Assembly: GCF_004341445.1 (NCBI RefSeq)
Contig: NZ_SLXV01000007.1
Coordinates: 56,039-95,972, forward strand
Source of the DNA: Baia soyae
GTDB lineage: Bacteria; Bacillota; Bacilli; Thermoactinomycetales; Thermoactinomycetaceae
DNA length: 39,934 nt
Direction of reading: 5' to 3'
Positions 13,900 to 19,018 of the stretch are shown here, piece by piece. The stretch's first letter is position 1, and each line of letters begins with the position of its first letter. A program made the translations under genes and the position numbers. The notes under the pieces were generated by a model. That model was not told where the DNA came from. It saw nothing but the letters and a program-made list of their open reading frames with translations, and did not search any database.

Positions 13900-14770
13900 A
13901 TCGAAGAAAATAGCAACTCTTGTCATGACTGTCGCTGTCTGCTCTATGATCGTGACTGCATGTCAATCGAAACAGACAAGTCCTACTGAGCCATCGGAAC
14001 CAAAGAAGGCAGATGCTCAAACCAGCCCAAAAGATCAGACCACTTCCGACGAAAACCAAATCAAAGCAATCCGATCCCAATTTCAAAACGCTACCCCTAC
14101 TCAGTGGGGCGAGAAAATGTCTGGGATCATCTCCAAGCTTCCCACTAACGAAAAAGTAATCGCACTCACTTTTGATGCATGCGGTGGCAAGCACGGAGAT
14201 GGCTATGATGCGGAACTAATTCAATTTTTGCAAGAAAATCAAATCCCAGCCACTCTCTTTTTAAATGCCCGTTGGATCGAGTCCCATCCAGAACTAACCA
14301 AGCAACTAGCCAATAATCCATTATTTGAGATTGAAAATCACGGCTCTGAACATCGTCCACTTTCTATAAATGGACGTTCTGTTTATGGAATTCAAGGAAC
14401 AAAAAATCTCGATGCCATCATCCAAGAAGTGATCGTCAATCATCGCCTCATTGAAAAAACGATAGGGAAAGCACCTCGATTCTTCCGTGCAGGCACTGCT
14501 TATTACGATGATATCGCCGTTCAGGTAGCCAAACAGTTGGGTGAGCAGATCGCCGGATTCCACATTACAGGAGACGCTGGCGCAACTTTCAATCAAGTAC
14601 AAGTAAAAAATGCGGTGTTACAAGCTAAACCTGGGTCCATCATCCTATTACATATGAACCAACCGAAAGGCGACACAGCAGAAGGCGTAAAAGAAGCGAT
14701 TCCCCTTCTAAAAAAGCAAGGATATCGCTTTGTAAAAATGGATCAGTACATTCCTGCTCAATCTTCATAA
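13892..14770 (+). CDS. NodB-type polysaccharide deacetylase lipoprotein
   Basis: A predicted membrane-anchored polysaccharide deacetylase of 292 residues. The N terminus has a type II signal with lipobox VTAC (lipidated Cys24), then a Ser/Thr/Pro/Gln-rich linker to about 60 and a NodB domain at about 95-285. Motif 1 reads TFDACGG instead of the common TFDDG, so the second Asp, usually a metal ligand, is Ala; motif 2 HGSEH keeps both histidines; RFFRAGTAYY and LLHMN correspond to motifs 3 and 5. I believe TFDACGG-type proteins form a recurrent subgroup, so the change may be ancestral rather than damage. The ATG at 13892 overlaps the corA stop by four bases, and AAAAAAGG upstream serves as ribosome site. 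Substrate (peptidoglycan, chitin or other) cannot be told. Confidence 0.85.
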   Translation: MNKSKKIATLVMTVAVCSMIVTACQSKQTSPTEPSEPKKADAQTSPKDQTTSDENQIKAIRSQFQNATPTQWGEKMSGIISKLPTNEKVIALTFDACGGKHGDGYDAELIQFLQENQIPATLFLNARWIESHPELTKQLANNPLFEIENHGSEHRPLSINGRSVYGIQGTKNLDAIIQEVIVNHRLIEKTIGKAPRFFRAGTAYYDDIAVQVAKQLGEQIAGFHITGDAGATFNQVQVKNAVLQAKPGSIILLHMNQPKGDTAEGVKEAIPLLKKQGYRFVKMDQYIPAQSS

Positions 14771-15210
14771 GGGATGACATAGATCACATATTTTTTTCGG
14801 TTTTCATCCACTTCTGTCGACTGCTTTTGCCAACAACGCCCTTGAATCAAATGCAATTCTGCTAACAAAGATAGCAACACATCCTGCGTAGAGGAATGCT
14901 TCTGTTCTTGTAAAACCGGATATTGAGTCCAATCTGGGTGGAAGTGCCGAAATTCTAATTTTACACCTCGCCAATTGGGCTCAAATACAATCCCCTTCTC
15001 CACAACCTGTTCCTCCAGATTGTGCTGTACATAAATCGAATAAATTATCCCATCTATCTCTGTCGATGTCTGCTCATATACTTTATGATCCTTCACCCAG
15101 TAATCACAAGCAAAGCGGAGGAGGATCTCTTCCTTAGAAATTCTCGGATAGTGGGCAATAACAGGGTATTTCTTATCTGAATCATCCAAAATATATTGCA
15201 AATAATGCAC
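14758..15210 (-). CDS. Protein of unknown function, last gene of the TerC/ATP-grasp cluster
   Basis: A 150-residue soluble-looking protein with no membrane segment or signal peptide, rich in aromatic residues (for example EFRHFHPDWTQYPVL and KYVIYVIPYED). I do not recognise the family. It begins with GTG at 15210 after AAGGAGAG, 13 bases downstream of the DUF350 gene, so it is almost certainly cotranscribed with DUF350 and the ATP-grasp gene. Its 3' end overlaps the convergent deacetylase gene by 13 bases, leaving no room for a conventional terminator. The context suggests a role alongside the ATP-grasp enzyme. Confidence 0.75.
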   Translation of the reverse strand: MHYLQYILDDSDKKYPVIAHYPRISKEEILLRFACDYWVKDHKVYEQTSTEIDGIIYSIYVQHNLEEQVVEKGIVFEPNWRGVKLEFRHFHPDWTQYPVLQEQKHSSTQDVLLSLLAELHLIQGRCWQKQSTEVDENRKKYVIYVIPYED

Positions 15211-15223
15211 TCGAAAACTCTCC

Positions 15224-15658
15224 TTAATAGTAGATAGAAGCCGCTAGGATTAAACTACTAATGAGGCTGATTCGTGAAGAAAAGATCGCTACGGGAACAT
15301 TTCCTTTGGGAATTTCTTTGATCACGCTAAAGGGAGTAATGAGATGGAAAAGATAGAATACCAGTACCTGAAAGACAACACCAATCACACCCCAAATGAT
15401 GAAATCCACTAGATTTTGGGAACTTAAGATAGCAGAAGCTAATACGATGGTCAGCCCTAAAATCTTACCACTCAGATCATAAGCTGCTGCTTTACCCGCT
15501 GCCACCTTACTTGCATCATCCATCTGAGAAGCTTCTTTGAGCAACTGAAATTCTGGATACGGCGTCGTTACAGCAAAAACGACTACCCCTAGGATTAAAA
15601 TAGGGATCGAAACCCCCAAATAAGTTAAAAAATTAATAAATGCCTCCCACTGCGTCAT
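15224..15658 (-). CDS. DUF350 family membrane protein
   Basis: A 144-residue protein with four hydrophobic segments (about 8-30, 62-84, 86-112 and 124-143), typical of DUF350 (UPF0719, YjfL-like). Recognisable stretches are AAGKAAAYDLSGKILGLTIVLASAI and the small-residue-rich first helix. DUF350 genes commonly sit beside glutathionylspermidine-synthase-like ATP-grasp genes, as here (16 bases downstream of one). The biochemical role is unknown. AAGGAGG lies 8 bases before the ATG. Confidence 0.85.
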   Translation of the reverse strand: MTQWEAFINFLTYLGVSIPILILGVVVFAVTTPYPEFQLLKEASQMDDASKVAAGKAAAYDLSGKILGLTIVLASAILSSQNLVDFIIWGVIGVVFQVLVFYLFHLITPFSVIKEIPKGNVPVAIFSSRISLISSLILAASIYY

Positions 15659-15673
15659 AACAAAATAACCTCC

Positions 15674-16915
15674 TTATTTATAACCAAATGGAAGGTAGTA
15701 AGCTAAATTGCCTGTGATCTCCTGATCCAAGCGAGTCACCAAGGCAGAAGCTTGACCTCCCACATAAAAACAACCCCATAATAATTTCCCACGATAGGAG
15801 CCTTTCATTGTCTCTACATCCATAGTGGGTAATTCAGCCAACTCTTGATAGATCATCATCTGATCTTGATATTCGCCCTCTCCATCCTTGGCTATAATCT
15901 CATCTTCAGCTGAATATAAGGTGACTGCTCCACCTTCCCGACCTAAGATCGGTTTTTTAACATATGGCTTTTCACCACGAAATTCATTATCTAAATAAGT
16001 AGGTAAAAAGTAAGTCTCAATCACTTCATGCTCTTCAGCGGTAAAAAATTGATTTTGCTCATGCAAGGACCATATGAGTGCCTGGAGCGCCTTAGTCTGA
16101 GCTACAAATGCGGATGGCGGGTTAATCATCGCAAGTCGCTTTTCCGCTACTAATTGTAGGGTGTGCGCACCAATGGGATAGCCTTGTTCCGTTTGGTCAT
16201 TAGCGAAAAATTCCCCTGCATGTAACCGATACAATACATCTATTGAACTCCAATTTCCTTCATCTAGGTAACATAATTGATGGTTATCCAGAGAAATTCC
16301 TACTTGAGAGAGCGGGATATAGCGTCCGCCAATCCCACTATGTCTCATGAGAAATTTCGCTGTCCCCTCATCTTCTGCATGTCCGCCAATCGAAGTAAAC
16401 ACCTTTGTGTCTACACCGTATCCGGATTCCTGATAGGCCGCTACCGTTTGCCGAAAGGCTCTGGTGATATGAGCTTCCATGCCGTGATTTGGATTCTCCA
16501 TTCCAAAAAAACGACAAACTTGTTCATTCACATAATAAGCCTCTACCACACTAGTTGGTGTATCGCTATTAAACTCCATCATCTTAACCCCTTGAGGAGT
16601 ACAGGCAAAATCGAACCTTCCAATTGTGGTAATAAACGAAAGCGGGAGGGTCGTACGGCAAAACGGAAAGGCCGCACGAGGAATCCCTAGCTCGCTAAGT
16701 AATGGATCCGAACCTTGCTGAAGAAAATGCGTCAGCCGCCCGTAGAGATCTCCGATTCGCTGAGTTGCTTCCCGAATCTCATCGACAAACGACTCTGTTA
16801 CAGTTTCACAATGCCCTAATGCATACTCTTGACCTTGCGTGAGATCCCAAGTGAAAATACCTTGTTTCCGAATGGGCTGGTACATTTGTTCTCGTGTTTG
16901 AATATATTTATTCAT
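15674..16915 (-). CDS. Glutathionylspermidine synthase-like ATP-grasp enzyme (YjfC/YgiC type)
   Basis: A 413-residue protein matching the C-terminal ATP-grasp ligase of glutathionylspermidine synthase, without the amidase half found in E. coli Gss. Diagnostic stretches are GRFDFACTPQGVKMMEFNSD (about 155-177, Mg/ATP site region), TSIGGHAEDEGTAKFL, KKPILGREGGAVTLY and the C-terminal FYVGGQASALVTRLDQEITGNL. Such enzymes form amide bonds between a carboxylate and an amine; the substrate of the stand-alone YjfC/YgiC group is not established. Upstream is a small lipoprotein gene (14 bases) and downstream a DUF350 gene, a known association. The ATG at 16915 has a GGGATGG element upstream. Confidence 0.88.
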   Translation of the reverse strand: MNKYIQTREQMYQPIRKQGIFTWDLTQGQEYALGHCETVTESFVDEIREATQRIGDLYGRLTHFLQQGSDPLLSELGIPRAAFPFCRTTLPLSFITTIGRFDFACTPQGVKMMEFNSDTPTSVVEAYYVNEQVCRFFGMENPNHGMEAHITRAFRQTVAAYQESGYGVDTKVFTSIGGHAEDEGTAKFLMRHSGIGGRYIPLSQVGISLDNHQLCYLDEGNWSSIDVLYRLHAGEFFANDQTEQGYPIGAHTLQLVAEKRLAMINPPSAFVAQTKALQALIWSLHEQNQFFTAEEHEVIETYFLPTYLDNEFRGEKPYVKKPILGREGGAVTLYSAEDEIIAKDGEGEYQDQMMIYQELAELPTMDVETMKGSYRGKLLWGCFYVGGQASALVTRLDQEITGNLAYYLPFGYK

Positions 16916-16929
16916 CTATCGTTCCATCC

Positions 16930-17163
16930 CTAACCACCAGACGAAACAGAGCTATCATTATATTTTACATACCCTGCTTTTTTCCCATCCATAATCAGGT
17001 ACGAGTTGGGATTATACGTACTCTTCCCATCATCATCACAAAATTTATCTGCGTTCTGATCATCACAAAATTCCAAGTCGCTCCCACTACTACATCCAGA
17101 AAGCGGAACCATTGCCACAGAAGCAACAAACAGACCTACTAATTTGGCTGTTCTGCTTTTCAT
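16930..17163 (-). CDS. Small acidic lipoprotein
   Basis: A 77-residue protein with a lipoprotein signal (VAMVPLSGC, lipid-modified Cys24) and a short exported domain containing two FCDD motifs (EFCDDQNADKFCDDDGKS), then a Tyr/Gly-rich tail ending SSVSSGG. Paired cysteines in acidic surroundings could bind a divalent metal or form a disulfide. Small lipoproteins accompany YjfC/YgiC-type ATP-grasp genes elsewhere (YjfM, YgiB neighbours); I cannot assign this one to a named family. AGGGGGTG precedes the ATG by 6 bases. It lies 49 bases after the TerC gene with no terminator between, which suggests the same transcript. Confidence 0.8.
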   Translation of the reverse strand: MKSRTAKLVGLFVASVAMVPLSGCSSGSDLEFCDDQNADKFCDDDGKSTYNPNSYLIMDGKKAGYVKYNDSSVSSGG

Positions 17164-17212
17164 CTTACACCCCCTATAATTTTATTCATCGAATCCACTA
17201 TTATCTAATCTA

Positions 17213-17902
17213 CTATGAGGTTTGTACCCCATCCGATGCTTTTTTATTCTTCTGATTCTGAAGATATCCCCAAGCCAAAACACCAAGTACAGCTAATACT
17301 TGAACCCCGTAGCCACGCATAGAGCCTTCTGGGAAGTACGGTTTCATAAATTTCTCTCCTGTAAGCATCCCACCAGCTGTCCAAGCAACTACGCCAGCGC
17401 CCACATACAAGATCCATGGAAAACGATCCATCAAACGAAGGAAGATAGTACTTCCCCAAACAATAATCGGTATACTAATAACTAATCCTAAAATTACTAG
17501 TAGATAATCACCGTGAGCCACACCCGCCACTGCTATTACATTGTCCAAGCCCATTACTGTATCTGCGATGACAATTGTTTGAATTGCTTGAAATACCGTT
17601 TTCTTGGCTTCAATCTCATGACCTTTTCCGTCCACTAATAACTTGTATGCAATCCATAACAACAGAACGCCACCGACTAATAGTAGACCCGGGATTTTAA
17701 GCAACCATACTACTGCTGATGTCGCTACAATCCTCATGACAACTGCGCCTACAGTCCCCCAAAATATAACCGTTTTTTGTTGCTCTTTTGGAAGGTTTCT
17801 TGCTGCTAAACCAATGACAATTGCATTATCCCCTGCTAATACGAGGTCAATAATCACAATAGATATAAGTGCTGTTAGAAACTCAGTTGTAAAGAAATCC
17901 AT
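17213..17902 (-). CDS. TerC-family membrane protein (YkoY/YceF/YjbE type, Mn2+ export)
   Basis: A 229-residue integral membrane protein with about seven hydrophobic segments. The two TerC hallmarks with buried acidic residues are visible: LAGDNAIVIGLAARNLP (about 22-38) and DTVMGLDNVIAVAGVAHGD (about 113-131). TerC proteins of B. subtilis are linked to manganese export and to loading Mn2+ onto secreted enzymes. Here a manganese-sensing yybP-ykoY riboswitch and a terminator lie directly upstream, which strongly supports Mn2+ as substrate and expression when Mn2+ is high. The ATG at 17902 follows AAAGGAGAAGG. It is the first gene of the probable five-gene cluster down to 14758. Confidence 0.92.
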   Translation of the reverse strand: MDFFTTEFLTALISIVIIDLVLAGDNAIVIGLAARNLPKEQQKTVIFWGTVGAVVMRIVATSAVVWLLKIPGLLLVGGVLLLWIAYKLLVDGKGHEIEAKKTVFQAIQTIVIADTVMGLDNVIAVAGVAHGDYLLVILGLVISIPIIVWGSTIFLRLMDRFPWILYVGAGVVAWTAGGMLTGEKFMKPYFPEGSMRGYGVQVLAVLGVLAWGYLQNQKNKKASDGVQTS

Positions 17903-17944
17903 ATGAACCTTCTCCTTTTTTTAATTAAAATTACGTACCCACGA

Positions 17945-17993
17945 GAAAAGACCTTTATCCTACAAGGAAAAATTCCAAATAGGATAAAGGTCT
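17945..17993 (-). terminator. Terminator of the yybP-ykoY riboswitch
   Basis: Perfect 14-base arms, TAGGATAAAGGTCT in plus-strand reading at 17980-17993 and its complement at 17949-17962, followed on the minus strand by TTTTC. The 5' arm includes the CCTTTAT sequence that also forms the closing P1 stem of the aptamer, so the two structures exclude each other. This arrangement gives gene expression when the aptamer is stabilised by ligand. Confidence 0.9.
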
Positions 17994-18075
17994 TGCTAAC
18001 AACGGTTACGTTGCCAACAAAGCCGGGGAATTCTCCCGTAATGACGACTTTGCTGTAACAGCTACTCCCCTTTAT
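17984..18075 (-). ncRNA. yybP-ykoY manganese riboswitch (aptamer)
   Basis: On the minus strand the RNA has the conserved elements of the yybP-ykoY (Mn2+) class in order: GGGGAGTAGC, the GCAAAGTCGTCATTACGG loop, CCCCGGCTTTGTTGGCAA, ACCGTTGTTAGCAAGACC. P1 is formed by ATAAAGG (18075-18069) and CCTTTAT (17990-17984). The 3' P1 strand is also the 5' arm of a terminator, so Mn2+ binding should prevent termination and switch on the downstream TerC gene. Conservation is strong enough to be confident without a covariance search. Confidence 0.95.
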
Positions 18076-18105
18076 AACGTACATATAAGGTTTTTTGTTA
18101 CTTCA

Positions 18106-18135
18106 ATCATAATCGAGCAATCAAAATGCTGTCAA
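18106..18135 (-). promoter_or_regulatory. Sigma-A promoter for the riboswitch-TerC transcript
   Basis: On the minus strand a perfect -35 TTGACA (18135-18130), an 18-base spacer and -10 TATGAT (18111-18106). The predicted start lies about 25 bases before the riboswitch aptamer. Confidence 0.8.
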
Positions 18136-18170
18136 TGTGTAATTCTTGTAAAACATGACACGAAATTCTA

Positions 18171-18998
18171 TTAGTACAAACGCTTTTTCTTATTAGCTCT
18201 TTTTCTATCTTGAAACCCTTCGGGGTTTACTTTTTCCCGAGTAGCACTTGGCTCTTGTAGTTCCTTACTTTGAGAACGTTCTGGAGCAACCAGGGCCATT
18301 TTCACTGTCTCCATCGCTTCTACCACCGGGACCTGCATAGAGGAATCTAAACCTGTATCTTCCTCGGTAGAATCTACGCCTAGCAGATTTTGCTTATACA
18401 GTCGTCTCGTAATCGCTTTGGAATGAGTAGAAGACGATTGATCTTGATCCTGATCCAGCCCTAGCTCCGGTTTCACAACAGAATGGGCAGAAGTAGGTTC
18501 TTTTCTAGCAAAACGGCGACGTGCAAATGGTTGAGTTTGTGTTAGAAATTCTTCTTCATGATGATCATTCTGTATATTCTCTTTCCTGTCATCTTCCAGG
18601 AGGGTGTTTTGTGCATGTTGCTCTCTTCGACTTCTCCAAGAAGATGGCTGGCCAAATTCTGCTTTATCTACTTCTTTTTTCCTTACTAGTTTATGTTCAA
18701 TTAACGAGGATGGTACATGATCTTTGTTAGTAAATTCTTCCTGCTCCTCGTCTTCTTGCTCTGTCTCTGATAAGTACTGTGCTTGTTGGAGTTTCCGTTC
18801 GCGTCTACGGGTGCTTCGACGCACTTTTTCCACCGATATGCTTGATGTTTCGAACTGCTCATCTTCTGGGAAAAATTGATTCAGCTCTTCCAATTCCTTG
18901 GCACGCTTTTTCCCAATGATGATACTAACTCCAACGATAATAACAATTATGATTACGCCAAGACCAACCCAAAGCATTGGTCCGTTAAGAAAAGACAT
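18171..18998 (-). CDS. Single-pass membrane protein of unknown function
   Basis: A 275-residue protein with one N-terminal membrane segment (about 9-30, WVGLGVIIIVIIVGVSIII) and a long, very polar cytoplasmic part with alternating acidic and basic runs (VRRSTRRRERKLQQ, SETEQEDEEQEEF), probably largely disordered, ending in a basic KKKRLY tail. Topology and composition resemble septation ring regulator-like or EzrA/ZipA-like anchors only superficially; I see no family motif. The frame is open to 19019 but GGAGG 8 bases before the ATG at 18998 sets the start. It begins 20 bases after the enoyl-CoA hydratase stop, so it is probably in the same operon. Confidence 0.78.
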   Translation of the reverse strand: MSFLNGPMLWVGLGVIIIVIIVGVSIIIGKKRAKELEELNQFFPEDEQFETSSISVEKVRRSTRRRERKLQQAQYLSETEQEDEEQEEFTNKDHVPSSLIEHKLVRKKEVDKAEFGQPSSWRSRREQHAQNTLLEDDRKENIQNDHHEEEFLTQTQPFARRRFARKEPTSAHSVVKPELGLDQDQDQSSSTHSKAITRRLYKQNLLGVDSTEEDTGLDSSMQVPVVEAMETVKMALVAPERSQSKELQEPSATREKVNPEGFQDRKRANKKKRLY

Positions 18999-19018
18999 AA
19001 CGAAACCTCCATTGATCA

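Follow-up and report, generated by a model that had tools for sequence, protein, structure and literature searches.

A manganese riboswitch ahead of terC and a lipoprotein/ATP-grasp ligase module in Thermoactinomycetaceae, with the lipoprotein tail as candidate acceptor of the ligase

In a stretch of 39,934 nucleotides from the genome of Baia soyae (positions 56,039 to 95,972 of contig NZ_SLXV01000007.1; hereafter the window), a yybP-ykoY Mn2+ riboswitch precedes a cluster of five genes that encode a TerC-family protein, a small lipoprotein, an ATP-grasp ligase, a DUF350 membrane protein and a protein of 150 amino acids, here called gene5. The association of riboswitch and ligase module recurs in the family Thermoactinomycetaceae, the anatomy of riboswitch and terminator is preserved with it, and the C-terminal tail of the protein next to the ligase is conserved far beyond the family. 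Based on these observations we consider it, on balance, probable that in Thermoactinomycetaceae the five genes form a single Mn2+-"on" operon whose ligase amidates the C terminus of the lipoprotein with a polyamine, and that the tagged protein is displayed when manganese is high. The cluster would then respond to Mn2+ and be transcribed as a unit, and its lipoprotein would be both modified and loaded with metal.

The cluster runs from 18135 to 14758 on the minus strand, in the order promoter, RNA leader, terC, lipoprotein, ATP-grasp, DUF350, gene5:

18106..18135, minus strand: sigma-A-type promoter, TTGACA-18-TATGAT, 11 of 12 consensus positions
17996..18084, minus strand: yybP-ykoY Mn2+ riboswitch aptamer with GGGGAGUAGC core (relaxed RF00080 match, family model R1 and alignment A5)
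18069..18075, minus strand: 5' strand of P1, AUAAAGG, pairing with 17990-17984 (7 pairs in the window)
17948..17994, minus strand: expression platform, predicted intrinsic terminator with a 22-position hairpin (called with up to two mismatches allowed), then TTCTC
17213..17902, minus strand: terC, predicted YjbE-type metal exporter/metalation protein (PF03741, 1.5e-49)
16930..17163, minus strand: small lipoprotein of 77 amino acids, lipobox LSGC at Cys24, CDDxxxDxxCDDDG at residues 33-46, C terminus VSSGG
15674..16915, minus strand: predicted ATP-grasp acid-amine ligase, YjfC/YgiC type, 413 amino acids (PF03738 GSP_synth, 1.1e-50)
15224..15658, minus strand: DUF350 (YjfL-type) membrane protein (PF03994, 3e-30, 105.4 bits, cut-off 26)
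14758..15210, minus strand: gene5, 150 amino acids, a tandem repeat matching no Pfam or NCBIfam family

The association of riboswitch, terC and ligase module is not peculiar to the window. The genome of the window and 60 relatives were searched for the ligase, which was found in 36 of the 61; the 37 stretches around the matches were compared with the window genes, a match on a 3.8-kb contig (G034) being left out. The family of the window comprises 23 genomes, whose named members are all Thermoactinomycetaceae. An intact ligase is encoded by 19 of these, a broken one by G018 and none by G008 (a genome 68% complete), G009 and G016. The sequence-only reading had set the recurrence of the association in other genomes beforehand as its refutation test, and the association does recur: in 19 of the 19 genomes with an intact ligase, which represent 12 genera, the riboswitch lies at the cluster, and in 18 of them terC adjoins the module. 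In the nineteenth, G014, gene5 comes immediately after riboswitch and terminator, which lie 251 bases upstream of its start codon side, and no terC is found at the cluster, the part of this genome that was compared. A named scan, in which the best 80 of at least 520 relatives were kept, gave five loci with the terC and riboswitch core, from Paenactinomyces, Thermoflavimicrobium, Laceyella, Seinonella and Shimazuella; according to the NCBI taxonomy, all five genera are Thermoactinomycetaceae.

The riboswitch that had been read ahead of terC is borne out by comparison, despite a low Rfam score. At the gathering threshold Rfam gives no match anywhere in the window; at a relaxed threshold RF00080 matches 18090-17998 over its full length (model positions 1-177; E 5.1e-6), but with 27.9 bits it falls below the gathering score of 45 bits. 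A gathering search alone therefore misses the aptamer, and a relaxed search together with a family model is needed. The family model R1 scores the window aptamer, which is one of its 16 training sequences, at 102.6 bits, and alignment A5 of 16 aptamers (the window and 15 relatives) has the canonical GGGGAGUAGC element, with 47 of its columns invariant. R1 matches 22 of the 23 family genomes at E ≤0.01, in 25 places, nine of which were outside model building (one of these nine is partial). RF00080 matches 21 of the 23 at E ≤1, yet only 3 of the 23 over the cut-off, which is also exceeded in 2 of 14 control genomes. The leader of the window folds far better than its shuffled versions (z −5.3; none of 200 reached its value).

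On the 3' side of the aptamer, 19 of 19 clusters have a long hairpin that is followed by a U-rich tail. In the window the 5' arm of this terminator contains the 3' strand of P1, CCUUUAU, and across the clusters CCUUUA(U) in the arm can pair instead with A(U)AAAGG just 5' of the aptamer core. P1 comprises 3-7 pairs across the 19 clusters, in a test anchored on the AAAGG/CCTTT strands, an anchor that was picked after inspecting the window. An unanchored search for the longest P1 mostly took the U-tract of the terminator, with overlap in 3 of 19 only, and was replaced by the anchored test. Since P1 and terminator compete for the CCUUUA(U) strand, a stabilised aptamer would block the terminator, which is the behavior of an "on" switch. 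By this logic the element is probably a transcriptional Mn2+ "on" riboswitch.

Coordinates, gene order and gaps of 13-49 bases had been given correctly by the sequence-only reading. The gaps amount to 49 bases between terC and lipoprotein, 14 between lipoprotein and ligase, 15 between ligase and DUF350 and 13 between DUF350 and gene5. Its clear sigma-A promoter likewise holds up: the site at 18135-18106 is the top of 10 matches in 5 kb, a number of matches also expected by chance, and the other nine all score 9. A terminator-like site was looked for in the terC-lipoprotein gap of the window and none was found. The scan of 14000-19000 listed six such sites on both strands against 4.4 expected, the terminator of the riboswitch itself not being among those listed; the sole one on the minus strand, at 15618-15601, lies inside DUF350. 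In three family genomes (L057, L060, L061) terC shares 4 bases with the lipoprotein gene, and 13 of the 15 gaps scanned between terC and module in the other loci, window included, have no terminator-like site. Short gaps, overlaps and the scarcity of terminator-like sites support the reading of the cluster as one Mn2+-controlled transcript. The single transcript, which the sequence-only reading had raised as a condition, is supported by them to this extent; the promoter-like matches weighed below qualify it.

The ligase consists of one PF03738 domain (residues 21-409) and has no amidase domain. Its profile matches the structures of YjfC (PDB 7uk6, 1e-38, positions 18-412) and YgiC (7uk8, 5.4e-37). 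Its residues R100, D102, E114, N116, K275, K321 and R326 align with R316, D318, E330, N332, K498, K533 and R538 of GspS, which we take to be nucleotide, metal and substrate residues, and T119 and T121 align with S335 and S337. Glutathione ends in glycine, and GspS joins the carboxylate of this glycine to spermidine. In RefSeq both E. coli YgiC and E. coli YjfC are named peptide--spermidine ligase. In the literature YgiC and YjfC are called "peptidylpolyamine synthetases" with reference to Pederick et al. 2023 (PMC12568646, 2025), a study also cited in PMC12270671 and PMC10948618; among the literature matches listed, no paper names the physiological substrates of ligases of this type. All 22 family genomes tested for it, that of the window among them, carry a gene of the spermidine-synthase family, and a supply of polyamine is therefore plausible. 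The sequence-only reading had proposed a glutathionylspermidine-synthase-like ligase of unknown substrate. The likeness stands, and the second part can be sharpened: the enzyme is a YjfC/YgiC homologue for which the C-terminal tail of the neighboring lipoprotein appears to be the best candidate acceptor.

This candidate is suggested by a count over 110 non-redundant Bacillota ligase loci, window included, 108 of which have a candidate partner next to the ligase. The partner ends in [GS][GS] in 102 of the 108, with Gly-Gly in 71, and 86 of the 108 carry the motif [KRGSH][GSA]G[IFLYMV]G within their last 32 residues; the pattern was spotted before it was counted, and because of related loci, non-gene frames and the choice of partners these figures are descriptive and not a probability. 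Other neighboring genes end in [GS][GS] in 12 of 406 cases (gene5 6/93, DUF350 0/93, ligase 2/113, TerC 2/18). So do 23 of 1019 open frames of at least 200 amino acids, 6 of them in GG; these control frames are not all genes, and a few partners of that length are among them. The six loci whose partner ends otherwise are L037, L056, L067 (with the broken ligase), L068, L131 and L165, the last of which has a lipoprotein ending in KGFGG further upstream than the counted candidate. By the rule used, L112 and L164 have no candidate partner; L164, too, has a lipoprotein ending in KGFGG further upstream.

Similar ends are found outside Bacillota. In E. coli, YjfM ends in RGGYGRSSSARGHWGG, and YgiB contains TRGGFGES and ends in SRSMGG. 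Sixteen plasmid records, chosen for diversity among 60 listed of 164 and 15 of them from outside Bacillota, came from Rhizobium, Methylobacterium, Paracoccus, Sulfitobacter, Asticcacaulis, Curtobacterium, Tsukamurella, Tistrella, Indioceanicola, Deinococcus, Acinetobacter, Roseomonas, Azospirillum, two cyanobacteria and B. subtilis. Counted by eye, 14 of the 16 encode nearby a protein with a [GS][GS] end, 11 of these in GG; in L187 the partner ends in CG, and in L195 (Azospirillum) the annotation has no such neighbor. Partners differ between phyla, but their last residues are alike. A tail of this kind as an acceptor is not described among the literature matches listed.

The body of the lipoprotein may point to metal. 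In the group of the window it is a short mature protein in which two invariant cysteines flank aspartates; C24, C33, D35, D39, C42 and D43 (window numbering) are invariant in the family alignment A2. Many relatives carry a CxDxNxDGxCDDDG-like stretch, which presumably resembles the DxDxDG loops of calcium-binding proteins, and by this motif argument the lipoprotein may bind metal. The window lipoprotein has no credible Pfam or NCBIfam family. DUF1190 was considered for it and ruled out, as none of 19 family members matched it at E ≤1. The window TerC, in turn, matches NCBIfam TIGR03717 (R_switched_YjbE) with 230.6 bits against a cut-off of 134.8, which places it in the YjbE subfamily. For B. 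subtilis MeeF and MeeY, Mn efflux activity, action together with the secretion machinery and metalation of exported enzymes have been reported (PMC10550928). By analogy, the window TerC may export Mn2+ and could load the lipoprotein.

From these parts the following mechanism can be proposed. With plentiful Mn2+ the aptamer would be stabilised, P1 would take the CCUUUA(U) strand, no terminator would form and the five genes would be made. TerC would export Mn2+ and, as reported for the TerC proteins of B. subtilis, hand it to proteins leaving via Sec. The lipoprotein would carry its acidic two-cysteine motif, similar to a metal loop, outside the cell. Going by homology and the conserved tail, the ligase would activate the C-terminal carboxylate of the Gly/Ser tail as acyl phosphate, which would then be joined to an amine, most likely spermidine, as GspS does with the glycine of glutathione; the polyamine would be put on the tail before export. 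DUF350 may act as the membrane partner and the tandem-repeat gene5 as a cytosolic helper. The outcome would be a polyamine-tagged metal-binding lipoprotein that is displayed, in this family, only at high manganese.

Several points weigh against this reading, and some of them favor other explanations. Outside the family, 90 loci were compared, 15 from other families and 75 named, all Bacillota (judging by length and place, L136 of the 75 and L063 of the 15 are one and the same contig). In none of the 90 was terC present within 5 kb of the ligase or a riboswitch at the cluster, although six of the 75 (L108, L115, L138, L149, L158, L170) hold less than 3 kb upstream of the ligase and the absence is therefore not established for those six. 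The TerC/manganese link belongs to one family and does not hold for the ligase system at large; the neighborhood survey suggested earlier, of TerC beside YjfC-type ligase and DUF350 genes, thus came out positive within Thermoactinomycetaceae and negative beyond. Further, four of the 15 scanned gaps contain a promoter-like match (window, L034, L043, L044) and two a terminator-like hairpin (L042 and L043, both long gaps). All this would fit a riboswitch that controls only terC in practice, followed by a separate envelope-stress unit of lipoprotein, ligase and DUF350 with its own promoter. We regard such a division as unlikely. Where family genomes have an intact ligase, across 12 genera, nearly all keep terC at the module and every one keeps the riboswitch; many gaps are short and three are overlaps; and in G014 the riboswitch leads directly into the module with no terC in between. 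In the window itself, the match that spans the gap has 9 of 12 positions, its −10 element adjoins the ribosome-binding site, and RNA would begin nearly at the start codon. For the riboswitch, P1 is nearly invariant and therefore offers little covariation support.

Other points concern the tail. Partners were chosen partly by similarity to the window lipoprotein, whose own tail is Ser/Gly-rich, and the tail count may therefore be somewhat inflated; moreover, L099 was counted from a wrong frame ending in GG, and as its likely lipoprotein ends in AS, the counts of 102 and 71 become 101 and 70. The tails of Paenibacillus and Brevibacillus often end in Ser and not Gly, the window tail keeps SSGG and is without the GG(I/F)G motif, and a flexible Gly/Ser tail might have some other role. 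The ligase is presumed to be cytosolic and the lipoprotein is exported, and the modification would therefore have to precede export. GspS and trypanothione synthetase, the relatives with structures found by profile and alignment, make small metabolites. The cytosolic location and this kinship would suit a ligase that makes a small soluble peptide-polyamine, comparable to a glutathione or bacillithiol conjugate, with the lipoprotein as a sensor or binding protein instead of a substrate. We give this explanation little credence, about as little as the division of the cluster: in nearly every locus examined across phyla the ligase adjoins such a protein, partners that are otherwise different have the C terminus in common, and a 2025 paper states, citing a 2012 study, that YgiC is without glutathionylspermidine synthase activity (PMC12506659). 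The terminal GG and the flexible tail also resemble, as far as resemblance goes, the tails of ubiquitin-type conjugation, and the C terminus might be joined to a non-polyamine amine, or to an amine like that of lysine on another protein or a component of the envelope, as a ubiquitin-like or cross-linking mark. This appears to be the most improbable of the three, with the E. coli relatives annotated as spermidine ligases and no second-protein acceptor identified.

We therefore retain polyamine amidation of the lipoprotein tail under Mn2+ control as our working model, and it is tempting to extend it. Only tentatively, and with clearly less confidence than for the window's family, we suggest a widespread bacterial tag, added after translation, in which YjfC-type ligases put polyamine on the C-terminal Gly/Ser of a dedicated partner with a GG(I/F/Y)G...GG tail in Bacillota, Pseudomonadota, Actinomycetota, Deinococcota and Cyanobacteriota; this tag would have come under a Mn2+ riboswitch in Thermoactinomycetaceae, with TerC loading the same lipoprotein with Mn2+. 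The conserved tail names a concrete acceptor for YgiC/YjfC-type ligases, and the riboswitch gives such a module a regulatory signal that would make chemical tagging of the cell surface depend on manganese status. TerC, in addition, may have a dedicated lipoprotein client.

Parts of the arrangement are already described. Operons of ligase, DUF350 and lipoprotein are covered in PMC11237479 (mSystems 2024) and TerC behind a Mn2+ riboswitch in PMC10550928 (Nat Commun 2023); no paper among the literature matches listed joins a Mn2+ riboswitch to such a ligase. The PspA-CesT/Tir-linked ATP-grasp/DUF350/DUF1190 operons of the former are alike in their GspS-related ATP-grasp and DUF350, and their lipoprotein is described as metal-chelating (PMC11237479); in contrast, the window cluster has another lipoprotein family, gene5 in place of DUF2491 and no PspA among its five genes, and adds TerC and the riboswitch. 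B. subtilis meeY (ykoY; PMC10550928) shares the Mn2+ riboswitch before a TerC-family gene, whereas the window terC is of the YjbE subfamily and leads four more genes. In E. coli, yjfIJKLMC and ygiBC likewise pair an ATP-grasp ligase with an adjacent lipoprotein whose last residues are GG, and the yjf operon includes a DUF350 gene (yjfL). Unlike the window, no terC is annotated in the stretches viewed, the lipoproteins YjfM and YgiB belong to DUF1190, and the yjf operon has the PspA-family YjfJ, which is not among the five genes of the window; this comparison covered the annotated genes. GspS (PDB 2io7, 3o98) is of the same ligase family, with aligned active-site residues, but the window ligase has no amidase domain and glutathione is not its expected substrate.

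gene5 is a recurrent member of the module, to which it adds a conserved family with a confident structure model. It consists of two repeats of a strand-strand-helix-strand-strand-strand unit; the AlphaFold2 model has a mean predicted local distance difference test score of 91.3 (93.8 for one repeat modelled alone), and the two halves align with each other with a hhalign probability of 97.9% (E 5.5e-13). No credible Pfam match was obtained in 25 members, and DUF4178, a candidate for this family, was ruled out in the same 25 at E up to 1. Structure searches with Foldseek and VIA-align returned only middling matches, among those listed HisI, MrfA, protein L and the glutamine synthetase N-domain. 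For one repeat, for which a beta-grasp fold was considered, the best Z was 6.9 (MrfA) and the lowest Foldseek E 0.058; protein L gave a Z of 5.3 at best (root-mean-square deviation 4.1 over 60 residues). The gene5 profile had three matches to PDB sequences, all at E >0.2.

Outside the family gene5 is on the strand of the ligase in 12 of the 15 and 49 of the 75 loci, while 1 and 18 more have it on the other strand; DUF350 is present in 13 of the 15 and 73 of the 75. On plasmids gene5 occurs in one record. Of the 22 other family loci, counting second copies and the one with the broken ligase, 14 have gene5 and 10 have DUF350; the module can therefore do without these two more readily than without lipoprotein and ligase. 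Most often the genes are arranged gene5 - lipoprotein - ligase - DUF350, but in the genus of the window gene5 has moved to the end. A second DUF350 gene stands between terC and gene5 in L042 and L051, and three relatives have, elsewhere, a second lipoprotein-ligase pair without terC or riboswitch (L052, L054, L056). In L067 (G018:C50) a stop breaks the ligase gene; terC and gene5 are still at the place, and no riboswitch was found there.

Six weak matches to the riboswitch model occurred in the 75 named loci, none of which was counted. The best, at 1135-1218 of L139 (23 bits, E 0.0047), is on the opposite strand and some 4.8 kb away from the ligase; E is ≥0.13 for the remaining five (L118, L130, L153 twice, L164). 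Next to an extra match in L222 (G017:C4:186427-186518), the flank compared contains nothing that matches the window TerC; among the frames listed downstream on the same strand the nearest, about 660 bases off, we take to resemble a phosphoribosyltransferase. In the genome of the window, the riboswitch (G000:C7:74036-74128 in genome coordinates) is the sole RF00080 match, and a second TerC-family gene is located at G000:C33:14864-15376.

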